DNA from: Janthinobacterium sp. PAMC25594
GTDB lineage: Bacteria; Pseudomonadota; Gammaproteobacteria; Burkholderiales; Burkholderiaceae_D
Direction of reading: 5' to 3'
NCBI RefSeq assembly: GCF_019443505.1
Contig: NZ_CP080377.1
Span: forward strand, 3,968,001 to 4,032,000
DNA length: 64,000 nt
The translations under genes and the position numbers were made by a program. Position 1 is the first letter of the stretch, and the number at the start of each line of letters is the position of its first letter. This document shows positions 14,991 through 25,590 of the stretch, one piece after another. Below the pieces are notes generated by a model. The model saw only the letters and a list, made by a program, of their open reading frames with translations. It was not told the DNA's origin and did not search any database.

Positions 14991-17861
14991 TTAGCTGGCC
15001 AGCGCCAGCAGATCGACCACGTCCAGCCCGGCCAGGTCTTGCGTCGTGTTGCCCGCAAACGCGGCGCGGCTTTGCTGGCCGTTTTTCAGCCAGGTGCGCG
15101 TGACGTCCTTGATCTGCGCCAGGGTGCAATTCAGCACGCCGGTGCGGAACTGCTGGCGCACGGCTTCCGTCGTGCCCCGCTGCTGCATGTTCCACGCCGT
15201 CAGCGCTTCCGCGTACGGCGAGTGCGGCTTGTCGAGGCCCTTGATGACGCAGATGATGGCTTCCTCTACCTGCTCTTGCGAGAAGTCGCCGTCGAGGATC
15301 TGATCGAGCGTCGTGCCGAAGTCGGCGAACGTGCCGGCCAGGCGCGGATCGCGGTAGGAACTCAGGGTGAACGTGCCGGCGCCGGCCGCGTAGCTGGCGC
15401 TGCCGCCATACGCGCCGCCTTTTTCGCGCAGCGCCGTATGCAGCACCTGGTTGGTCATCAGTTCGGCGGCCACGGCCAGGGCCGCAGCGTCCGGATTGTG
15501 CACGCCAGGCACGGCCCAGGAAACGAAGCAATGGTTGATCTGGCTCGTCGCATGCAGGGCCGTGTTAGCCAGCGGCAATGCGACCGGTGCGACATCAACG
15601 GCTGGTGCTGCCGCCTGCGTGCTGGCCGCCGGCAATTCCAGCAAGCGGGCCAGGGTGATGCCATCGTGCTCCAGGCCCGCGCACAGCACGGTCGGCTGCT
15701 GGGCGATGATGTGCGCGTGCAAGGTATCGAGTTCGCGCGCGATTTCCTGCAAGCCTGCCGAGGTTTTGCTCAGTTGCTGCAAACGGCGGTAGAACGGCAG
15801 TGCGGCCGGGCCGCCGACGATGTCGTCGAAGCGGCGCGTGGGCGACAGCGGTGCTGCCGAGGCCAGCATGGCGTAGCGGTTGCCCGATTCGGCCAGGCTG
15901 GAGAGTTTGTCCTGCACCAGGCTCTCGATCAGGAAAGCCAGGCGCTCTTCTTCATCGAAGCGGGGCTTGGCGATCCAGGCCGACAGGACGGCGGCAATCG
16001 CCGCGTGTTCTTCGCGCAAGCCGCTGGCCGAGAACGACAATTCCACGCGCATGGCTTGCTGCGGGCGGGGAATGGCTTCCAGGCCGATGTGGAACGAAGG
16101 CACCATGCTCTGGCGCCAGGCGCTGGCGTCGTCGAACGACATGTCGCCCACGCCCAGTTCCGGCGCCAGGTCCGTGTACAGGCGCAGCCAGGGCCACGAC
16201 GCTTCCGGCAGGCTCGACACGTCGTACAGCACGTTGGCATAGCTGATGCCGTTCGAGGCAATGCTGAACGCCACGGCGCCGTCGATCGCCGGGGGAATCG
16301 GCAAGGCCGGGCGCGGCGCGGCGCTGACGTCGCCGGGGCGGATGCGCGGCAGCACTTCCGAATTCGATGGCAGTTGCTGATGCGCTTCCAGCGCGGCGGA
16401 CTCGGCGACAATGTGCTCGCGCTCGGCATCCGTCAAGCGCGCTTGCAGGGCCGCCAGCTTGGCGTCTTCCTGCGCGGCACGGTCGGTAAAATAGGCGCTG
16501 TCGGGCACCACGTGGGTGGTCAAACGGGTCGGATTGGCGATCAGCTCGCGCACCAGCTGCTTGAAGAATTCAGTGCCTTCGATCTGCTGTTCCAGCGTTT
16601 CCAAAATCGCCGCATTGTCGAAGGCGTCCATCACGTCGCCGCCATACATGGCCAGCGGCAAGGCGTGCAGCAAGCGGCCCAGGCCATACGGCATGCGGCC
16701 GCTGCTGATTTCGCGCTGGCTGTATTTGATGTCGCGCAAGGCCGCGTGCAGCACGGCGGCGGGAATGCCCTGTTCCGCCGTCTCTTCCAGCGCCGTCCAG
16801 ATGCGCTGGTGCGCATCGGCGATCTGTTCCTGCGTCAACCCTTCCATGCCGATGTGGAACACCATCTGGCGGATGCCCGCGTCGCGGCCATTCATGTCCG
16901 ATGGGCGGCCATAGCCGGCCGATTCCATGGCGCGCATGACGGGCGCCGACGATTCGCCCAGCAAGCCGTGCGACAGCAGATGCGCGTGGTAGTAGGCGAT
17001 GGGGTCGCTCGACTCGCCCATCAACCAGGCGAATTGCAGGCCGAATTCATCGTCGCGCGCTTCCTGCGACGGAATGTTGACGATGTTTTCCTGCGGCGCG
17101 GTCCAGGCGGGCGCCAGCTGCGGCAGGCGGCGTTCGGAGAAACCGCTGAGCTTGGACAGCACGCGTTCGGCCACTTGTTCCTGCACGGCCGATGCTTCGA
17201 TATTGCCTGCGGTCATGATCACGGCTTGCGACGGATGGTAGTGGCTGGCGTGGAATTCTTTCAGCATGGCATGCGTGAGTTCCGGGATCACCAGCGGATC
17301 GCCGCCCGATTCCACTTCATACGTCGTGCCCTTGAGCAAGGTGCTGGCGATGCCGCTGTCGAGCGCGCGCATGGGGCTGTTGAAGGCGCCCTTCATTTCA
17401 TTGAAGACGATGCCCTGGTACACCAGCTTGTCGCCTTCGAACGCATGGCGCCAGCCTTCCTGGCGGAAATTCAGGTAATCGAGGTTGGGGAAGAAGGCGG
17501 CATCCAGGTACACGTCGAGCAGGTTGAAGAAATCCTTGCGGTCGGTGCTGGCGAACGGGTACACGGTGCGGTCCGGATAGGTCATCGCGTTCATGAAGGT
17601 GGCCGTCGAGCGGCGCAGCATCGAGAAGAAGGGGTCGCGCACCGGGTAGCGCGACGAGCCGCACAAGGCCAGGTGTTCGAGGATGTGGGCGCGCCCGTCG
17701 CTTACTTCAGGCACAGTGGGAAAGGCCACCAGGAACACCATCTCAGCCTGCTCGGTATGCATGTGGATATGGCGCATGCCCGTTGCTGGCTCGACATATT
17801 GCTCGATGGTTGCCTGCAAGACTGGAATGAAGTTGCTGCTGACTTTTTCAAATGTGCTCAT
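14991..17861 (-). CDS. M16C zinc metallopeptidase, presequence-protease (PreP/Cym1) type
   Basis: The 956-residue protein starts at the ATG 17861 (MSTFEKVSSNFIPVLQATIE). It carries the inverted zinc motif H59-x2-E62-H63 in GRAHILEHLALCGSSRYPV and a downstream glutamate in FNEMKGAFNSP. The M16 peptidase fold is repeated across the full length, with the Arg/Tyr-bearing C-terminal segment LREKGGAYGGSASY. The length and the early H-x2-E-H position match the M16C subfamily of organellar presequence proteases, which degrade short peptides in a closed chamber. It has no signal peptide, so I expect a cytoplasmic oligopeptidase. A frame continuing 102 codons upstream is not supported by a ribosome binding site. 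Confidence 0.9.
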   Translation of the reverse strand: MSTFEKVSSNFIPVLQATIEQYVEPATGMRHIHMHTEQAEMVFLVAFPTVPEVSDGRAHILEHLALCGSSRYPVRDPFFSMLRRSTATFMNAMTYPDRTVYPFASTDRKDFFNLLDVYLDAAFFPNLDYLNFRQEGWRHAFEGDKLVYQGIVFNEMKGAFNSPMRALDSGIASTLLKGTTYEVESGGDPLVIPELTHAMLKEFHASHYHPSQAVIMTAGNIEASAVQEQVAERVLSKLSGFSERRLPQLAPAWTAPQENIVNIPSQEARDDEFGLQFAWLMGESSDPIAYYHAHLLSHGLLGESSAPVMRAMESAGYGRPSDMNGRDAGIRQMVFHIGMEGLTQEQIADAHQRIWTALEETAEQGIPAAVLHAALRDIKYSQREISSGRMPYGLGRLLHALPLAMYGGDVMDAFDNAAILETLEQQIEGTEFFKQLVRELIANPTRLTTHVVPDSAYFTDRAAQEDAKLAALQARLTDAEREHIVAESAALEAHQQLPSNSEVLPRIRPGDVSAAPRPALPIPPAIDGAVAFSIASNGISYANVLYDVSSLPEASWPWLRLYTDLAPELGVGDMSFDDASAWRQSMVPSFHIGLEAIPRPQQAMRVELSFSASGLREEHAAIAAVLSAWIAKPRFDEEERLAFLIESLVQDKLSSLAESGNRYAMLASAAPLSPTRRFDDIVGGPAALPFYRRLQQLSKTSAGLQEIARELDTLHAHIIAQQPTVLCAGLEHDGITLARLLELPAASTQAAAPAVDVAPVALPLANTALHATSQINHCFVSWAVPGVHNPDAAALAVAAELMTNQVLHTALREKGGAYGGSASYAAGAGTFTLSSYRDPRLAGTFADFGTTLDQILDGDFSQEQVEEAIICVIKGLDKPHSPYAEALTAWNMQQRGTTEAVRQQFRTGVLNCTLAQIKDVTRTWLKNGQQSRAAFAGNTTQDLAGLDVVDLLALAS

Positions 17862-18143
17862 GCGGTATGGGATCTCTTCAGTAGGTGAAACGGATAGTCG
17901 GTGGGGCTGCATCACAGGTGGGGGCAAAGTGGCGTAATGCCAGGGCGGGCGCCAGTTTGATGCCTGCGTGAAGTTTTTCCCTATTGTACTAGGAGTATTC
18001 GTGCGCCGCCGCCGAGGCTTGCTTGTCGGTCGCAAAAGCAACAATGTTGCCAAATAGCCTCTTTTACGGGTGGCGCCCCGGGATGGCGGCTTAGCGTACC
18101 ATGCGCCTTTTCCCCCTTGCTGACCGAACCGAAGGCGCTTACC

Positions 18144-19556
18144 TTGTCCAGACTGTCCTTTCGCCAACTGTTATTTGCCGCCTTCATTTTGACGACGGGC
18201 ATTTTGACGGCTACCTCCGTGCAAGCCTTGCTGACCCTGGAGCACCTGGCGCGCCTGGGGCGCGAGACGGCGGCGCAGGCGATTGCCCTGACAGAACAGT
18301 CGCAGCGTCTGTCCGAGCGTACCCTGGCCATGGAGCGCAGCGCGCGCCAGTTCCTCGTGCTCGATGATCCCGTGTTCCGCGAGCGCTATGCGGCGGCCCG
18401 CGACGAAGCGACGGCGGCGCTGCAAGTGCTGAACCGCGCCACGCCCGAGTTTGCCTCGCAGCTGGCCGACGAGTGGACGGCGCAGGCGCAAGCGGCGTGG
18501 GAAGTCTTGCAAGCGGGTAAGCGCCGCAAGCGCGATGGCCACGCCGTCGTGTACCGCGCGTTTGCCCGCATGGCGCAGATCAATGACAGCCTGGCGCGCG
18601 AAAGCAAGACGGAAATCGGCAGCCGCAACGATGCCCTGCTGGCCGAGCTGGAACGCCAGCGCCGCGTGCTGGGCGTGCTGGTGGGCGGCGCCGTGCTGCT
18701 GGCGGCCGTACTGGCCACCTGCTTCGGTTTTCTATTGTCGCGCCCACTGCGCCGCATTGAGTCGGCCATCGAGCGCCTGGGCGAGAAGCGCTACGACCAG
18801 CCCATCGTCGTCGGCGGCCCGGCCGATACGCGCCGCCTGGGCCAGCAGCTGGACTGGCTGCGCCAGCGCCTGGCGGACCTCGATGCCGACAAGGAACGTT
18901 TTTTGCGCCACATCTCGCATGAGCTGAAAACGCCGCTGGCGGCCCTGCGCGAAGGCGTGGCCTTGCTGGAAGACGAGGTTGCCGGCAAGCTCAGCGATGG
19001 CCAGCGCGAAATCGCCGGCATCCTGCAGCAAAACACGGCGTCCCTGCAAAATCAGATCGAAGACTTGCTGCGCTACAATACCGCCGCCTTTGACGCCCAG
19101 CATCTGGCGCGCAGCAAGGTCGACTTGCTGGTCTTGCTGCAAGATGTGGTGGCCGGGCAGCGCCTGCAATGGCTGGCGCGCCGCCTGACGGTCGAAGTGC
19201 AGGGCGAATCTCTGATCGTGCAGGCCGACCGCGACAAGCTGGCAACAGTGCTGGCGAACCTGCTGTCGAACGCCGTGCGCTTCAGCCCGGAAGGCGGCAC
19301 CGTGCGTTTTACCCTGACTTGCGAAGGCGGCCGCGTGCGCATCGATTGCATCGACGAGGGGGCCGGCGTGGCGCCCGAGGATGCCGAACGCATCTTCGAG
19401 CCGTTTTACCAGGGCGTGCGCCAGGCGGCCGGCGCGCGCAACGGCAATGGCATCGGCCTGTCCATCGTGCGCGAATATATCGCTGCCCACGATGGCCGCG
19501 TCACTCTTTTACCGCGCCAGGCTGGCGCGCACTTTCGGATAGAACTGCCCTTATGA
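18144..19556 (+). CDS. glrK: GlrK/QseE-like sensor histidine kinase
   Basis: There is no ATG at the N-terminus. I chose the TTG at 18144 because GAAGG lies 8 bases upstream. An in-frame TTG at 18117 lacks a ribosome binding site. The product (470 residues) has TM helix 1 (LLFAAFILTTGILTATSVQ), a periplasmic helical region with MERSARQFLVLDDPVFRERY as in E. coli GlrK, TM2, a HAMP-like linker, the H-box ISHELKTPLAALREG with H259, and an ATPase domain (NLLSNAVRFSPEGG, then GNGIGLSIVREYI). It heads a three-gene operon with a lipoprotein and the response regulator GlrR. In enterobacteria this pair responds to envelope stress. Confidence 0.85.
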   Translation: MSRLSFRQLLFAAFILTTGILTATSVQALLTLEHLARLGRETAAQAIALTEQSQRLSERTLAMERSARQFLVLDDPVFRERYAAARDEATAALQVLNRATPEFASQLADEWTAQAQAAWEVLQAGKRRKRDGHAVVYRAFARMAQINDSLARESKTEIGSRNDALLAELERQRRVLGVLVGGAVLLAAVLATCFGFLLSRPLRRIESAIERLGEKRYDQPIVVGGPADTRRLGQQLDWLRQRLADLDADKERFLRHISHELKTPLAALREGVALLEDEVAGKLSDGQREIAGILQQNTASLQNQIEDLLRYNTAAFDAQHLARSKVDLLVLLQDVVAGQRLQWLARRLTVEVQGESLIVQADRDKLATVLANLLSNAVRFSPEGGTVRFTLTCEGGRVRIDCIDEGAGVAPEDAERIFEPFYQGVRQAAGARNGNGIGLSIVREYIAAHDGRVTLLPRQAGAHFRIELPL

Positions 19557-20089
19557 TGACGAGAACTTCCCTGGCCGGCATGGCCGCCTGCGCGCTGCTG
19601 TTGGGCGCTTGCGCCGCCAAGCCCGCTATCCAGACGCCCGTGCTGGTGCAGACGCCGCCGCGCGTGGTGGTGGTCGCCGATCCCCAGCTGACCGAACTGC
19701 TGGCGTATCAAAGCGCCTTGCGCCTGATGACGCCGTCGGAACTGGTGAAAGCGCAGCTGGACCTGGCGAAGGCCGATCATGCGCCATCCAACACCATCCG
19801 CCGCGCCATGCTGCAGGCCACCGTGCGCGGCACCGGTGACCTGGCCCGCGCGCAAGCCTTGCTGGAACCGCTGGCCACGGCCAAAGATGGTCAACTGCTG
19901 GCGCCGCTGGCGCAATTGCTCAGCAGCCAGTATGCGGAACTGCGCCGCCAGGACGAGAGTATCGACAAGCTCAATGCGCAGCTGCGCGACGCCCAGCGCC
20001 GCAACGAGCAGCTCAATGAAAAACTCGAGGCGCTGAAAAACATCGAGCGCAGCCTCTCCGTGCGGCCCGCCGCGGGAGCGCCAAAATGA
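19553..20089 (+). CDS. QseG-like lipoprotein of the GlrK/GlrR operon
   Basis: The 178-residue protein starts with a lipoprotein signal (MMTRTSLAGMAACALLLGAC) and has a C-terminal coiled-coil stretch (LRDAQRRNEQLNEKLEALKN). It overlaps the kinase gene stop by ATGA and the response-regulator start by 4 bases, so the three are co-translated. Position, lipobox and coiled coil correspond to QseG, the outer-membrane lipoprotein that in enterobacteria interacts with the GlrK sensor domain. Sequence conservation of that family is low, so equivalence rests on context. Confidence 0.75.
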   Translation: MMTRTSLAGMAACALLLGACAAKPAIQTPVLVQTPPRVVVVADPQLTELLAYQSALRLMTPSELVKAQLDLAKADHAPSNTIRRAMLQATVRGTGDLARAQALLEPLATAKDGQLLAPLAQLLSSQYAELRRQDESIDKLNAQLRDAQRRNEQLNEKLEALKNIERSLSVRPAAGAPK

Positions 20090-21465
20090 GCGAGCACGCC
20101 CACATTTTGTTGGTCGACGACGATCCCGACCTGCTGCGCCTGCTGACCATCCGCTTGAAGGCGGGTAATTATCGGGTCACGGCCGTGGGCAGCGCGGAAG
20201 CGGCGCTGGCGCGCCTGGCCGTGGAATTGCCGGCCCTGGTCATTACCGACGTGCAACTGCCGGGCCGCGACGGCCTGGCCCTGTTCGATGAAATCCGCCG
20301 CCAGCATGCGGCCCTGCCCGTCATCCTGCTGACCGCCCACGGCACCATTCCCGACGCCGTCGACGCCACGGCGCGTGGCGCGTTTGCGTATCTGACGAAG
20401 CCGTTCGACGGCAAGCTGCTGATGGAAAAAGTGGCATATGCCATCAACTTGTCCACCGTCATGCCGGCGCCCGCGTCCGGCGACGAAAGCTGGCGGGCCG
20501 AGCTGATCAGCCGCAGCGCGCAGATGGCCGAGCTGCTGGCCGAAGCCAAGCTGGTGGCCGCTTCCGACGCCAGCATTTTGATCCGCGGTCCCAGCGGCAC
20601 GGGCAAGGAATTGCTGGCGCGCGCGCTGCACAACGCCAGCCGCCGCGCCAAGGCGCCGTTCATCGCCGTCAACTGCGGCGCCATCCCCGAGCAGTTGCTG
20701 GAATCGGAACTGTTCGGCCACGTGAAGGGCTCGTTTACGGGCGCCGTCGGCAACCGCGAAGGTTTATTTCAGGCGGCCGATGGCGGTACCCTGTTTTTAG
20801 ATGAGATCGGCGACATGCCGCTGCCGCTGCAAGTCAAACTGTTGCGCGTGCTGCAGGAGCGGGCCGTGCGGCCCGTGGGCGCCGACCAGACGCGGCCCGT
20901 CGACGTGCGCTTATTGTCCGCCACGCATCGCGACCTGGACGTGGCCATGGCGGAAGGGCAGTTCCGTGAAGATTTGTATTACCGCCTGAACGTGGTCACC
21001 CTGACCCTGCCGCCGCTGGCCGAGCGCCGCGAAGATATTTCCCTGCTGGCGAACCATTTCCTGCAGAAACTGGCGGCCAAGTACGACAAGCCGCTGAACG
21101 GCTTCGCGCCCGATGCCCTCACGGCCCTGGTGGCGGCGCCATGGCCCGGCAACGTGCGCCAGCTGGTCAATGTGGTCGAGCAAGTGTGCGCGCTGGCCAC
21201 GGCGTCGCTGGTGCCCTTGTCCCTGGTGCAGCGGGCCTTGCGCGTGCCGTCGCTGGAAGCGCTCAGCTACAACGAAGCCAAGCAGCGCTTCGAGCGCGAC
21301 TACCTGATTCAATTGCTGCGCCTGACGGATGGCAACGTGGCCGACGCGGCCCGCCTGGCCGACCGCAACCGCACGGAGTTCTACCGTTTACTGCAGAAAT
21401 ACGAGCTGACGCCGGCCCTGTTCCGGGGGGATGGCGACCCTGTCGCTGATGAGCGACAAAAATAA
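20086..21465 (+). CDS. glrR: Sigma-54-dependent response regulator GlrR (QseF)
   Basis: The 459-residue protein has an N-terminal receiver with phospho-acceptor D55 (ALVITDVQLPGRDG) and the LLTAHG and LTKPFDG motifs. An AAA+ domain follows, with Walker A GPSGTGKE and the sigma-54 contact loop ESELFGHVKGSFTGAVGNRE. The loop reads GSFTGA rather than the usual GAFTGA. A Fis-type HTH ends the protein (GNVADAARLADRNRTEFYRL). It is translationally coupled to the lipoprotein gene. The 3' end of this gene itself contains a TGTC-N10-GACA site, and a second one and a sigma-54 promoter lie just downstream. The BON gene at 21721 is thus its likely direct target. Confidence 0.92.
   Translation: MSEHAHILLVDDDPDLLRLLTIRLKAGNYRVTAVGSAEAALARLAVELPALVITDVQLPGRDGLALFDEIRRQHAALPVILLTAHGTIPDAVDATARGAFAYLTKPFDGKLLMEKVAYAINLSTVMPAPASGDESWRAELISRSAQMAELLAEAKLVAASDASILIRGPSGTGKELLARALHNASRRAKAPFIAVNCGAIPEQLLESELFGHVKGSFTGAVGNREGLFQAADGGTLFLDEIGDMPLPLQVKLLRVLQERAVRPVGADQTRPVDVRLLSATHRDLDVAMAEGQFREDLYYRLNVVTLTLPPLAERREDISLLANHFLQKLAAKYDKPLNGFAPDALTALVAAPWPGNVRQLVNVVEQVCALATASLVPLSLVQRALRVPSLEALSYNEAKQRFERDYLIQLLRLTDGNVADAARLADRNRTEFYRLLQKYELTPALFRGDGDPVADERQK
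21441..21458. promoter_or_regulatory. Candidate GlrR upstream activator site 1 (inside the glrR 3' end)
   Basis: TGTC-GCTGATGAGC-GACA is an exact TGTC-N10-GACA palindrome, the binding consensus known for enterobacterial GlrR at glmY. It overlaps the last codons of glrR and is centred about 205 bp upstream of the predicted sigma-54 start site. Confidence 0.7.
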
Positions 21466-21517
21466 AGCGTGAATAATCAATGGCTTACTGTTAAATATTG
21501 ATTGTCTTGCCATAAGC

Positions 21518-21535
21518 TGTCGTCGTCAGGCGACA
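21518..21535. promoter_or_regulatory. Candidate GlrR upstream activator site 2
   Basis: TGTC-GTCGTCAGGC-GACA is a second exact TGTC-N10-GACA palindrome. It is centred 77 bp from the first and about 128 bp upstream of the predicted sigma-54 start site, a normal enhancer distance. Confidence 0.75.
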
Positions 21536-21627
21536 AAAAGCCCCGATTTTCGGGCCAGATCCGGCGCAAACGCGCTGGAAAAATCGAGTTTGAGTGTAAG
21601 TCTTTGATTTTGAATGCAATTTAAAAG

Positions 21628-21644
21628 CTGGCACGGTGCTTGCT
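21628..21644 (+). promoter_or_regulatory. Sigma-54 (RpoN) promoter of the BON-domain gene
   Basis: CTGGCACGGTGCTTGCT fits the -24/-12 consensus YTGGCACG-N4-TTGCW at every defined position, with GG and GC in the required phase. Transcription should start near 21655, leaving a leader of about 66 bases before the ATG at 21721. Confidence 0.88.
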
Positions 21645-21720
21645 ATATGGGTAGATGTGACGCTTCAACGTGTTGCTTTATCCAAGTAAGAAGCTTTTAA
21701 CTTCATTGAGAGGAACTACC

Positions 21721-22083
21721 ATGCAAACATCGAAACTGTTCAATACCCTGGTCGCCGCTATCGTACTGTCGGGCGCCTCGATCACCGCTTCGCATGCCGC
21801 TGACTCCGCACCAAAAGCACAAGCTCCTGCTGGCACTGTCGTGGCCGCCAACGCCGCCGCCGCCGTCCCTGATGAAACCATCACTTCCTCGGCCAAGGCC
21901 GCCCTGAGCGCCGATGCGCAAGCCGCTGCCCTGCCAGTCAAGGTAGCAACCCAGCAAGGTGTCGTTGTCCTGTCGGGCGATGTACCGAGCGCCGAAGCGG
22001 GTGACCGCATCGTGCAGATCGTCGCTTCCGTGAGCGGCGTGAAAGAAATCAAGAACGAGCTGAAAGTCAAAGCCGCCGGTTAA
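21721..22083 (+). CDS. Periplasmic BON-domain protein (OsmY-like)
   Basis: The 120-residue protein begins with a Sec signal peptide (LFNTLVAAIVLSGASITASH, cleavage probably after ASHAA). It then has one BON domain (ITSSAKAALSADAQAAALPV, VVVLSGDVPSAEAGDRIVQI, VSGVKEIKNELKV). BON proteins bind phospholipid surfaces and help keep the envelope intact under osmotic or membrane stress. The ATG at 21721 follows GAGAGGAAC. The gene sits behind a perfect sigma-54 promoter with two GlrR-type sites, so it is probably part of the envelope-stress output of GlrK/GlrR. A strong terminator follows. Confidence 0.9.
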   Translation: MQTSKLFNTLVAAIVLSGASITASHAADSAPKAQAPAGTVVAANAAAAVPDETITSSAKAALSADAQAAALPVKVATQQGVVVLSGDVPSAEAGDRIVQIVASVSGVKEIKNELKVKAAG

Positions 22084-22112
22084 TCCCCCTCGCGCTGTAC
22101 TTTACTCCGGGT

Positions 22113-22141
22113 TGCCCTGTCTGCGGACAGGGCATTTTTTT
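22113..22141 (+). terminator. Rho-independent terminator after the BON gene
   Basis: A perfect 9-bp stem, TGCCCTGTC with GACAGGGCA around the loop TGCG, runs directly into a T7 tract. Confidence 0.92.
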
Positions 22142-22289
22142 GTGCCATTGTGTCCACAAGTCACGCCTGCTTCCAGGCAGGAAGCTCGGCGATAGGGTTA
22201 GAATAGCCAGCACTGGCGCCGCTCCCGGCGCTGTTTGTCATCCCCGGCACAGCATCTGTTGCAAGGCTGCGCCGCTACCAGGCTACCGC

Positions 22290-23303
22290 ATGTCTTCTTT
22301 CTCTCCCGCTGCCCTGTTGCGCAATCTGAAACCCGATAATTTCACCCTCGCCCTGCTCGTCACCGTGGCGCTGGCCAGCTTTTTGCCCTGCACGGGCCAG
22401 ACGGCCGTGGTCTTCGGCCATATCACCACCGTGGCCATCGGCGCCCTGTTCTTCCTGCATGGCGCCAAGCTGTCGCGCGAAGCCGTGGTGGCCGGCGTCA
22501 TGCACTGGCGCCTGCATTTGCTGGTGCTGGCCAGCACGTTCATTTTGTTCCCCCTGCTGGGCCTGGCCCTGCGTCCGCTGGCGCTGACTTTCCTTACGCC
22601 CGATCTGTACGTGGGCATCCTGTTCTTGTGCGCGCTGCCATCGACCGTGCAATCGTCGATCGCCCTGACGGCCATGGCGCGCGGCAACGTGCCGGCCGCC
22701 ATCTGCAGCGCCTCGGCCTCGAATTTCATCGGCATCTTCCTTGCCCCCATCCTGGTCGGCTTGCTGGTGGCGAAAGGCGCGGAAAGCAAGTCGTCGGTCG
22801 ACGCTGTTTTATCGATTGTCATGCAATTGCTGCTGCCCTTCCTGGCTGGCCAATTCCTGCGCCGCTGGATCGGCCGCTGGGTCGACCGCCACAAGGCCAT
22901 GCTGAAATTCGTCGACCAGGGTTCCATTTTGCTGGTGGTCTACACGGCCTTCAGCGAAGCCGTCAGCGAAGGCCTGTGGCACACGATCTCGGTGGAAACG
23001 CTGGTGGCCCTGGGCCTGTTCAGCATTTTGCTGCTGGCGCTGGTGCTGGGCCTGATGACATTCATCAGCCGCCGCCTGGGCTTTAGCAAGGAAGACGAGA
23101 TCGCCATCGTCTTTTGCGGTTCGAAGAAAAGCCTGGCCAGTGGCGTGCCCATGGCCAAGGTCTTGTTTGCCACGCACTCGCTGGGCATGGTGATTCTGCC
23201 GCTGATGCTGTTCCACCAGATTCAGCTGATGATTTGCGCCGTGATTGCGCAGCGCTATGCGCGGCGCAAGGATGATCTTGTCAGTGAGAAAGTGGCTGCC
23301 TGA
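22290..23303 (+). CDS. BASS-type symporter, SBF-like (YfeH family)
   Basis: I place the start at the ATG 22290 (MSSFSPAALLRNLKPDNFTL). The 50 codons upstream are GC-rich and show no membrane pattern. The 337-residue product has about 9-10 TM helices and SBF-like motifs: HGAKLSREAV in the first third, ALPSTVQSSIALTAMARGN in the sodium-site crossover helix, and VFCGSKKSLASGVPMAKVLF in the second crossover. Such proteins are usually annotated as bile acid:sodium symporter family. The natural substrate in soil or water bacteria is probably an organic anion but is unknown. A -10-like TAGAAT lies at 22199-22204. Confidence 0.87.
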   Translation: MSSFSPAALLRNLKPDNFTLALLVTVALASFLPCTGQTAVVFGHITTVAIGALFFLHGAKLSREAVVAGVMHWRLHLLVLASTFILFPLLGLALRPLALTFLTPDLYVGILFLCALPSTVQSSIALTAMARGNVPAAICSASASNFIGIFLAPILVGLLVAKGAESKSSVDAVLSIVMQLLLPFLAGQFLRRWIGRWVDRHKAMLKFVDQGSILLVVYTAFSEAVSEGLWHTISVETLVALGLFSILLLALVLGLMTFISRRLGFSKEDEIAIVFCGSKKSLASGVPMAKVLFATHSLGMVILPLMLFHQIQLMICAVIAQRYARRKDDLVSEKVAA

Positions 23304-23361
23304 GGCTGCACGGGGCGTGCTTGAAGCAAGTTCAGCCGTCTTGACCTGTGCCGTGGCAGAA

Positions 23362-23385
23362 CGCTATATATAAGTGTATATTACG
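23362..23385. promoter_or_regulatory. ModE operator upstream of modA
   Basis: The 24-bp site has half-sites CGCTATAT and ATATTACG separated by 8 bases. That is the same 8-8-8 spacing as the E. coli modA operator, and CG..TATAT...ATA..CG is conserved. It ends 36 bp before the modA start. The modE-like gene is the last of this operon, so molybdate-bound ModE probably represses it. Confidence 0.75.
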
Positions 23386-23421
23386 GTCCTTGTTCACCGT
23401 TCACTTTACAAGGATACGATC

Positions 23422-24180
23422 ATGCGCCTCACCTCCCTCGCCCAACTCCTCAGCGCCGCCCTGCTCGCTACCGCCGCCACCTCCGCCTTTGCCGGCGAAG
23501 TGGTGGTGTCGGCCGCGGCCAGCCTGACGAATGCGTTCAAGGATGCGGCGCAAAGCTATGAGGCGCAATATCCGGGCAGCAAGGTGTCCCTGAACTTCGC
23601 CGCTTCGGGCGTGCTGCTGCAACAGATCGTCAAGGGCGCGCCCGTGGACGTGTTTGCTTCGGCCGACCAGGAAACCATGGATGCGGCGCAAAAGCAGGGC
23701 CTGGTGCTGCCGGCCGACCGCATGGACTTCGTCAGTAACAGCCTGGTGCTGATCGTGCCGCACGATAGCAAGCTGGGCATCAAGAGCCTGGCGGATCTGA
23801 CGCACAAGGGCGTGACGCGCGTGGCCATCGCCAATCCGGCCAGCGTGCCCGTCGGCCGTTACTCCGAAGGCGCGCTGAAGAAGGCGAAGCTGTGGGATGC
23901 CGTGCAGCCGAAAGCCATCGGCACGCAGAACGTGCGCCAGTCGCTCGACTACGTGGCGCGCGGTGAAGTCGATGCGGGTTTTGTCTACGCCACCGACGCG
24001 GCCATCATGAAAGACAAGGTCAACGTGGTGCTGGACGTGCCGCTCGACGCGCCCGTGCTGTACCCGATCGCCACCATCAAGGGCAGCGGCAATGCGGCCG
24101 AAGCGAAGCGCTTCGTCAGCTACCTGCAGACGGCGCCGGCGCAAGCCATCCTGGCCAAGTACGGCTTCAAGAAGCCCTGA
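23422..24180 (+). CDS. modA: Molybdate ABC transporter, periplasmic binding protein
   Basis: The 252-residue protein has a signal peptide (LLSAALLATAATSAFA) and the ModA ligand motifs: VVVSAAASLTNAFKDAAQSY, LNFAASGVLLQQIVKGAPVD, and FASADQETMDAAQKQGL. The C-terminal half has the RVAIANPASVPVGRYSEGAL segment and a late DAGFVYATDA segment that contacts the oxyanion. It captures molybdate or tungstate for ModBC. AAGGATACGATC before the ATG at 23422 gives the ribosome binding site; an upstream in-frame start at 23374 falls within the ModE operator and is less likely. It is the first gene of modABC-modE. Confidence 0.95.
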   Translation: MRLTSLAQLLSAALLATAATSAFAGEVVVSAAASLTNAFKDAAQSYEAQYPGSKVSLNFAASGVLLQQIVKGAPVDVFASADQETMDAAQKQGLVLPADRMDFVSNSLVLIVPHDSKLGIKSLADLTHKGVTRVAIANPASVPVGRYSEGALKKAKLWDAVQPKAIGTQNVRQSLDYVARGEVDAGFVYATDAAIMKDKVNVVLDVPLDAPVLYPIATIKGSGNAAEAKRFVSYLQTAPAQAILAKYGFKKP

Positions 24181-24199
24181 TTTTGAGGTAAGCGTCTGC

Positions 24200-24871
24200 A
24201 TGGATATCGCCTGGACCGCGCTGGCCCTGTCGCTCAAAGTTGCGGCCTGGGCCACGGCGCTCAATTTGCTGCTCGGCATCGGTACGGGCTATCTGCTGGC
24301 GCGCACGCGTTTTCCCGGGCGCGAGCTGCTCGACGCCCTGTTGACCCTGCCGATGGTGATGCCGCCCACCGTGCTCGGCTATTACCTGCTGGTGCTGCTG
24401 GGCCGGCGCGGCACCCTGGGCATCTGGTTGCAGGATAACTTCGGCATCAACCTGATCTTTACGTGGCAGGGCGCCGTCATCGCTTCCACGGTGGTCGCTT
24501 TTCCCCTCGTCTTCAAGCCCGCGCGCGCCGCCTTCGAGGCGGTCGACGGGCAGCTGGAGCAGGCGGCCCGCGTGCTGGGCCTCCCGGAAATGGCGATTTT
24601 CTTCCGCGTCACCTTGCCGTTGGCCTGGCGCGGCATTCTCGCGGGCGTGCTGCTGGGATTCGTGCGCGCGCTCGGTGAATTCGGCGCCACCCTGATGGTG
24701 GCCGGCAGCATCCCCGGCAAGACGCAAACCCTGTCGGTGGCCGTGTATGAAGCCGTGCAGGCGGGCCAGGACGACGTCGCCAATACGCTGGTGGTGATCA
24801 TCTCCTTTGTGTGCATCGTGGTGCTGCTGTCGGCTGGCCGCCTGGCACCCGGGCGCATCGCGCACAAATGA
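24200..24871 (+). CDS. modB: Molybdate ABC transporter, permease
   Basis: The 223-residue protein has about five TM helices, starting MDIAWTALALSLKVAAWATA. It carries the permease EAA loop LEQAARVLGLPEMAIFFRVT-LP and the conserved RALGEFGATLMVAGSIPGKT segment of ModB. It forms the homodimeric channel of the molybdate importer. It begins 19 bases after modA and overlaps modC by ATGA. The ribosome binding site (GAGG) is rather distant at about 11 bases. Confidence 0.95.
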   Translation: MDIAWTALALSLKVAAWATALNLLLGIGTGYLLARTRFPGRELLDALLTLPMVMPPTVLGYYLLVLLGRRGTLGIWLQDNFGINLIFTWQGAVIASTVVAFPLVFKPARAAFEAVDGQLEQAARVLGLPEMAIFFRVTLPLAWRGILAGVLLGFVRALGEFGATLMVAGSIPGKTQTLSVAVYEAVQAGQDDVANTLVVIISFVCIVVLLSAGRLAPGRIAHK

Positions 24872-25590
24872 CGCTGATGATGACGCCCATGCAACTCGAC
24901 CTCGACATTCGCGCCACCTTGCGCTCCGGTAAACGCCGTTTCGACATGCACGTGCAATGCACCTCGAACAGCCAGCGCATCGCCGTGTATGGTCCGTCCG
25001 GCGCCGGCAAGAGCATGACCCTGAAAGCCATTGCCGGACTGTTTACACCGGATGCGGGGCATATCCGCCTGAACGGCCGTACCCTGTTCGATTCGGCCGC
25101 CGGCATCAACCTGCCGCCGCAGCAGCGCAACGTGGCTTACCTGTTCCAGGATTACGCGCTGTTCCCGCACCTGACGGTGCGCCAGAACGTGGGCTTCGGC
25201 CTGAGCCGCGGCTGGTTCAACCCGCGCGCGCGCGAAAAATTGCAGAAGGTCGAGCATTGGCTCGACGCATTCCACTTGCAGGAACTGGCGCACCAGTTTC
25301 CCGACGAGTTGTCCGGTGGCCAGCGCCAAAGGGTGGCGCTGGCGAGGGCGCTCGTGGCCGAGCCAAACGCGCTGCTGCTCGACGAACCGTTTGCCGCCCT
25401 CGATCCGGCCCTGCGTGTCAAAATGCGTCTGGAGCTGAGCCAGTGGCAGCAGCGCCTGGACGTGCCCATGATCCTGATCACCCATGATCCGGAAGATGCG
25501 CGCATCCTCGGCGAGCATGTGCTGTACTTGCGCGATGGGCAGATCGATAACAGGGAAGAACACATGGCATTGGGTGAACGCATTGGATAA
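24868..25590 (+). CDS. modC: Molybdate ABC transporter, ATPase, without the TOBE domain
   Basis: The 240-residue protein has Walker A GPSGAGKSMTLKAIAGLF, Q-loop AYLFQDYALFPHLTVRQNVG, signature LSGGQRQRVALARAL, Walker B NALLLDEPFAALDP and the switch His in ILITHDPEDA. It lacks the C-terminal mop/TOBE domain of classic ModC proteins (about 350 residues), as in other short ModC variants. In this operon the mop domains are found only in the ModE protein encoded next. Translation is coupled to modB, and the last codons overlap the modE frame. Confidence 0.93.
   Translation: MTLMMTPMQLDLDIRATLRSGKRRFDMHVQCTSNSQRIAVYGPSGAGKSMTLKAIAGLFTPDAGHIRLNGRTLFDSAAGINLPPQQRNVAYLFQDYALFPHLTVRQNVGFGLSRGWFNPRAREKLQKVEHWLDAFHLQELAHQFPDELSGGQRQRVALARALVAEPNALLLDEPFAALDPALRVKMRLELSQWQQRLDVPMILITHDPEDARILGEHVLYLRDGQIDNREEHMALGERIG

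Follow-up and report, generated by a model that had tools for sequence, protein, structure and literature searches.

The window analysed here is a stretch of 64,000 nucleotides from Janthinobacterium sp. PAMC25594 (contig NZ_CP080377.1, positions 3,968,001 to 4,032,000 of the forward strand). It contains a GlrK/GlrR-type (QseE/QseF-type) regulator operon, followed directly by a compact control region and a small gene for a secreted BON-domain protein. The features, in window coordinates and with UAS for upstream activator site and IHF for integration host factor, are the following:

18117..19556, + strand: glrK (qseE)-type sensor histidine kinase with Pfam HAMP, HisKA and HATPase_c domains; start codon approximate
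19553..20089, + strand: qseG-like lipoprotein placed between kinase and regulator, with an LLLGAC lipobox (by eye) and a weak likeness to the C-terminal part of QseG
20086..21465, + strand: glrR (qseF)-type sigma-54 response regulator, REC-AAA+-Fis helix-turn-helix (HTH), recognition helix RNRTEFY
21441..21458, no strand: UAS1, exact GlrR-type site TGTC-N10-GACA, wholly within the 3' coding end of glrR
21475..21487, + strand: IHF site 1 (IHF1), exact WATCAANNNNTTR, between UAS1 and UAS2
21518..21535, no strand: UAS2, exact GlrR-type site TGTC-N10-GACA
21597..21609, - strand: IHF site 2 (IHF2), exact consensus match whose right end precedes TGGCAC by 19 bp
21628..21644, + strand: sigma-54 -24/-12 promoter CTGGCACGGTGCTTGCT, 13/13 consensus positions
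21708..21714, + strand: ribosome binding site GAGAGGA, read directly
21721..22083, + strand: secreted single-BON-domain protein of 120 aa (Pfam BON 62.7 bits, cut-off 27), signal peptide by eye
22113..22141, + strand: intrinsic terminator of the BON transcript, a 9-pair stem followed by a T run

A first-pass annotation of this DNA had described two exact activator sites 77 bp apart, a full-match -24/-12 promoter and a BON-domain target behind it, and all of this is borne out: UAS1 and UAS2 are 77 bp apart from start to start, the promoter matches YTGGCACGNNNNTTGCW at 13/13 positions beginning at 21628, and the open reading frame (ORF) that follows passes the Pfam BON cut-off. The same annotation put the first site in the stop-codon region of glrR; it is wholly coding, and the TAA stands at 21463-21465. 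To this description we add a pair of IHF sites in the enhancer. The sequence WATCAANNNNTTR, which we take to be the IHF consensus, has only two exact matches on both strands of the window, and both fall inside this 200-bp unit. As in a GlrR/QseF-dependent sigma-54 control region, the -24/-12 promoter is preceded by TGTC-N10-GACA sites, and two predicted IHF sites, both exact consensus matches, lie between activator sites and promoter.

The number of activator sites does not by itself prove anything, and we rejected it as an argument. Two sites are found in the window against 0.60 expected, which is weak evidence because 9 of 100 shuffled sequences also reach two; genome-wide, the pattern occurs 111 times and its reversed form 79 times. 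What stands above chance is the pairing of the sites with the promoter, together with their conservation, rather than site number. A loose UAS-plus-sigma-54 pattern has four matches in the genome, with TGGCAC-N5-TTGC solely at this locus, and a single exact UAS genome-wide, again the one described here, has TGGCAC-N5-TTGC downstream within the searched distances.

The arrangement is well kept among relatives that possess the regulator. GlrR itself is patchy in our family sample, being present in 19/116 genomes (E <= 1e-100; 19 loci), and a small BON gene stands behind glrR in 18 of these loci. Both sites are exact in 14 loci and in three others one or both sites of the pair deviate at a single position, while a promoter scoring >= 10/13 is present in all 19. 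In a sample of 300 genomes from the order (as defined by GTDB), GlrR was detected in 122, and an exact UAS pair occurs in 60/300 genomes (reversed pattern, 4/300). The pair tracks the regulator, with 54/122 GlrR-positive versus 6/178 GlrR-negative genomes (Fisher p 8e-19). The first-pass annotation had named loss of the sites in relatives with the same gene order as evidence that would refute it. Among 130 GlrR matches in the order, the DNA behind 128 was examined (two partial matches were left out) and one stretch was too short, leaving 127 loci; the sites are kept, together with the promoter and directly behind glrR, in 60 of them (30 exact, 21 with one mismatch and nine with two). The shuffle control (10 per locus) yielded no pair-plus-promoter, and the reversed sequence gave 0/127. 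No UAS pair was seen behind glrR in 16 loci from other orders of the class (L072-L087), seven of which have a gene of the P-II (GlnB) type in this place.

To place UAS1 relative to the end of glrR, we pooled 164 loci from the searches and from the scan described below (the scan part being the loci listed, and a few genomes being counted twice); an exact pair is present in 108 and absent from 56. The stop codon of glrR falls within UAS1 in 33 of the 108 and downstream of it in 44, where the site is entirely coding; in the remaining 31 it precedes UAS1. GlrR differs in length by a few residues among relatives, and the stop codon shifts in and out of UAS1 with the palindrome intact. As UAS1 is exact even where the stop codon lies inside it, it is the DNA site, and not the C-terminal peptide, that is under selection.

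Several different genes are found behind this switch. We scanned GTDB species genomes for the UAS pair plus promoter and obtained at least 116 loci; the following counts refer to the loci listed, with driven genes assigned by similarity to representatives that had been confirmed by Pfam and NCBIfam, and they are not frequencies in nature because an exact pattern preferentially picks up well-kept cassettes and genera that are well sampled. The pair plus promoter lies directly behind glrR in 83/116 loci, one of them (L201) with a regulator at 44% identity. The driven genes encode BON proteins in 36 loci, OpgG in 24, OpgH in 11, glycine-zipper proteins in 8, bactofilins in 7 (Pfam was applied to L122 only), GlmY in 5, EF-hand proteins in 3, a cyanophycin synthetase in 1 and an acyltransferase in 1; 16 fall under other genes and 4 are truncated. 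Outputs follow lineages: BON in 27 and cyanophycin synthetase in one of the 28 Oxalobacteraceae loci, Opg in 23 and truncated genes in two of the 25 from Comamonadaceae, BON in 7/7 from Chromobacteriaceae and Opg in 5/5 from Sphaerotilaceae, with glycine-zipper proteins driven in other betaproteobacteria. As a positive control, all five Erwiniaceae loci have an Rfam GlmY match 12-13 nt after the promoter. The earlier proposal of a different output in betaproteobacteria is supported, with one correction: the BON output holds for Oxalobacteraceae and Chromobacteriaceae and not for all betaproteobacteria, the output elsewhere being opgG/opgH, a glycine-zipper gene or a bactofilin gene. In the order sample, where outputs were assigned by similarity to representatives within 900 bp, the 60 loci gave BON alone in 14, glycine zipper in 9, OpgH in 8, OpgG in 3, mixtures or single matches of BON, EF-hand and glycine zipper in 10, and no match in 16.

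Outputs are strongly clustered on the GlrR tree (86 rows, a quick method, long branches flagged). Ten classes, with 'other' and 'truncated' counted, require 18 output changes versus 50.4 after shuffling; without these two classes 11 changes remain, and the BON class needs at least three.

The spacing of the cassette is restricted as well. Of the 83 loci directly behind glrR, 40 have an exact IHF site between UAS1 and UAS2, where shuffles predict 0.2, and 48 have one between UAS2 and the promoter, where shuffles predict 0.3; these loci were chosen by exact pattern, and the order sample is less biased. Among 36 BON, 35 OpgG or OpgH and 8 glycine-zipper loci, every exact IHF2 ends at one of two distances before TGGCA, namely 19 bp in 26 BON and 21 Opg loci or 18 bp in 3 Opg loci, and no glycine-zipper locus has an exact IHF2. 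At one mismatch or fewer, IHF1 keeps to a fixed position: 26 BON and 4 Opg loci have it at offset 16 in + orientation, and 3 BON and 21 Opg loci have it at offset 4 and flipped. The UASs are 63-69 or 77 bp apart from start to start in 48/49 representatives (one locus per 90% GlrR identity cluster), and in the order sample their distance is 63-68 in 55/60, 77 in two and 96-98 in three. The gaps between UAS2 and promoter cluster near 64, 75, 84 and 94 within the range of 64-94 that the scan accepted, gaps beyond it also existing, and none of 20,000 random draws was as periodic (periods 9.5 to 11).

UAS1 starts at -22 from the aligned GlrR end in 23/31 BON, 14/21 OpgG and 5/10 OpgH loci, and in 1/7 glycine-zipper loci. 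Distances taken from the stop codon instead differ from group to group, since that codon itself shifts. The UAS1 position and the spacing between IHF2 and promoter are common to the BON and Opg groups, which makes it probable that the switch was retained as the gene behind it changed; between Oxalobacteraceae and Comamonadaceae, the switch probably stayed and the gene behind glrR was replaced.

A gene of the MdoG family was not found in the genome of the window by a search that detects it in E. coli, and 43/300 order genomes have one. We do not claim mutual exclusion of the BON output and opgG, since one genome (G026) carries both MdoG and a BON gene behind glrR. In another genome (G300:C23:153117-158087, partly in L227), opgH has its own UAS pair and promoter and is followed by opgG, in a cluster convergent with glrR and unlike that of Comamonadaceae; the link between GlrR and Opg therefore seems to exist in another arrangement too.

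Other cassettes were noted in the scan. In Noviherbaspirillum (L150:3976-6015), the gene directly behind glrR is cyanophycin-synthetase-like and carries a UAS pair and a sigma-54 promoter; similar genes with such a cassette are located away from glrR on the DNA examined in L229, L230 and L231. Bactofilin-type genes carry the cassette with glrR about 2.1 kb off and in opposite orientation (L122, L146, L168, L195), or with glrR absent from the DNA examined (L109, L141, L154). A gene for a PEP-CTERM/exosortase-associated acyltransferase also stands behind a UAS pair and sigma-54 promoter (L189:5257-5997).

The genes of the regulator operon stand in the order kinase-lipoprotein-regulator of a GlrR/QseF operon, with a lipoprotein that is a marginal match to QseG. 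By Pfam, the regulator contains Response_reg, Sigma54_activat and HTH_8 domains (HTH_8 at 22.1 bits, cut-off 22); its best NCBIfam match is GlrR with 590 bits, 179 bits ahead of the next of 108 families. In the named set, a Janthinobacterium GlrR is closest, with 99% identity. The DNA-reading helix RNRTEFY is common to this GlrR and to both Erwiniaceae GlrR rows examined, and also occurs in 86/89 genome-contig rows, 138/156 order-side rows and 12/16 rows from other orders.

We propose, with a probability of about 0.83, that the locus is a self-contained unit of regulator and output, in which GlrK/GlrR, IHF and sigma-54 would switch on a periplasmic BON protein, and that the switch predates the target it now has. 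With the aid of the QseG-like lipoprotein, GlrK would sense an envelope condition and phosphorylate GlrR, which may then bind both UAS2 and, within the 3' end of glrR itself, UAS1. IHF would bend the DNA at two fixed places and bring GlrR to the sigma-54 RNA polymerase at the -24/-12 promoter, giving a monocistronic mRNA for the small BON protein, whose probable function, like that of OsmY and DolP, is to protect the envelope. The participation of GlrR, IHF and sigma-54 polymerase is proposed because the parts, the helix RNRTEFY included, are the same as in enterobacteria. From the sites, their spacing and conservation and the identity of the driven genes, all of which are read from the DNA itself, we infer dependence on GlrR, IHF and RpoN, and likewise suggest the kind of signal, an envelope-stress role and the function of the BON protein. 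That the switch predates its target is indicated by the same arrangement behind glrR with opgG/opgH as predicted targets in related families, and by other envelope genes or the small RNA GlmY as targets elsewhere.

Several points weigh against this proposal, beginning with the fact that the whole body of evidence is computational. Two of the 19 family loci have a single recognisable site, and in 67 of the 127 order loci no pair stands directly behind glrR. Exact IHF sites are less frequent in the order sample (IHF1 in 11/60, IHF2 in 14/60) than in the loci chosen by exact pattern; at one mismatch or fewer the numbers are 44/60 and 37/60, given without shuffle control. The regulator falls below the NCBIfam GlrR equivalog cut-off (590 vs 763 bits), and we therefore call it GlrR-type. 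The assignment of the lipoprotein to QseG is marginal: it scores 19.6 bits with NCBIfam QseG (cut-off 234) and 17.1 bits with the Pfam YfhG lipoprotein (cut-off 27), and matches the solved QseG chains at E 0.56-0.76 across residues 101-172. The genome has five BON matches in four frames in total, the window protein counted, and envelope protection by this protein is suggested by a remote similarity.

The best known target of GlrR in enterobacteria is the small RNA GlmY, and the real product here might accordingly be a regulatory RNA in the BON transcript, with the protein secondary, which we consider very unlikely. GlmY begins 12-13 nt past the same promoter element in the five Erwiniaceae loci, and by comparison the BON transcript would start near 21655; this fits the 66-nt leader of the first-pass annotation, in which no GlmY-like RNA had been seen. 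Neither GlmY (RF00128) nor GlmZ (RF00083) was found in this genome by models that detect both targets in E. coli; Rfam gave no match at gathering level in 17500-24500 (one match had 18.5 bits vs 82 required); and the leader folds no better than shuffled sequences (z +0.96). The presence of a BON gene behind the promoter in nearly all family loci also argues for the protein. One further observation favours an RNA: in L212 and L213 (1500-2150 in each), a second UAS pair with sigma-54 promoter, away from glrR, drives an ORF for a secreted 44-aa peptide; behind this ORF stand a long, conserved inverted repeat (seen by eye as GCGGCTAACAAAACCC / GGGTTTTGTTAACCGC) and then a GC-rich terminator. This second cassette, for which Rfam has no match at gathering level, could possibly be a small RNA or peptide gene under GlrR.

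Still less likely, in our judgement, is that another sigma-54 activator such as the PEP-CTERM regulator PrsR uses the sites, which would then lie behind glrR by coincidence. PrsR and this GlrR are related response regulators (TIGR02915 gives 366 bits to the latter), and a few cassettes do drive the PEP-CTERM-system acyltransferase or bactofilin genes, but the site reported for PEP-CTERM genes, in the passages available from PMC1569441, is a 17-nt motif ending in TTTACA, and on this ground we rejected PrsR as reader of the UAS sites. Moreover, the UAS pair tracks GlrR across genomes, lies directly behind glrR in most of the listed loci, and goes with a DNA-reading helix that is also that of the glmY-driving GlrR. 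The least likely alternative is that the sites autoregulate the glrKR operon or are leftovers, the BON gene being expressed from another promoter: UAS1 does lie within glrR and such sites can work at a distance, but a consensus scan of 21380-22300 showed no sigma-70-like promoter, and the sigma-54 promoter faces the BON gene in fixed phase with UAS2 and IHF2 among relatives.

Beyond the self-contained GlrR-BON unit, a broader reading is that the complete sigma-54 enhancer at the 3' end of glrR, with its two GlrR sites, two IHF sites and promoter, may be a fixed socket into which unrelated envelope genes (for BON proteins, periplasmic glucan enzymes, glycine-zipper proteins or cyanophycin synthetase) have been swapped, GlmY then being the enterobacterial output and not the founding role of GlrR; we give this broader idea slightly better than even odds. 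The system is a clean case of a regulatory switch that is more conserved than the gene it drives. The BON, OpgG/OpgH and glycine-zipper targets share an envelope theme, which hints at what the system senses.

The closest solved structures to the BON protein, by sequence, are OsmY (8rjx) and YraP (7a2d). OsmY and DolP (YraP) have two BON domains each, and DolP is a lipoprotein. The window protein shares the BON domain with them but has one rather than two; it scores below the NCBIfam cut-offs for OsmY (51.9 bits vs 174) and for the YraP type, and has a plain signal peptide (by eye), unlike the lipoprotein DolP. No plasmid-borne homologue of the BON protein was found in the plasmid collection searched. 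Further downstream, 22290-25590 holds an SBF-like transporter, a ModA-type molybdate-binding protein and then ABC-transporter-like ORFs, which are apparently unrelated.

Work on GlrKR/QseEF has centred on enterobacteria, chiefly on glmY and rpoE, and even there the role of the system is termed weakly defined in the available part of PMC6075780. According to the passages available from PMC6075780 and PMC12691602, QseE is stimulated by QseG in these bacteria, and QseF, once phosphorylated, occupies its sites with the aid of IHF and turns on transcription from a sigma-54 promoter. The same three-gene qseEGF operon is reported as widespread in Gammaproteobacteria, Betaproteobacteria and Acidithiobacillia (PMC12691602); in the parts available, that study deals with the activation of QseE by QseG, with glmY as reporter, and names no output genes outside enterobacteria. 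Among the matches listed in our literature search (titles, beginnings of abstracts and passages), none links GlrR/QseF to BON or opg genes. The readable enhancer pattern allows likely direct targets to be named in many genera for which the literature searched gave no known target.

Compared with the enterobacterial glmY region, the locus has the same TGTC-N10-GACA sites, IHF sites, -24/-12 promoter and type of regulator, as far as these are described in the available passages of PMC6075780, PMC8745638 and PMC4987338. A BLASTN-level search found no E. coli DNA resembling the cassette, and the two regions differ in several respects: the cassette lies behind glrR here and in front of glrK in the glmY case; two activator sites stand against the three reported for enterobacterial glmY; the sigma-70 promoter is missing by consensus scan; and the output is a BON protein, not a small RNA. 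In Comamonadaceae and Sphaerotilaceae the same type of cassette behind glrR precedes opgG/opgH (mdoG/mdoH). In layout, the sequence corresponds to the control region reported for enterobacterial glmY, with different, lineage-specific predicted outputs.

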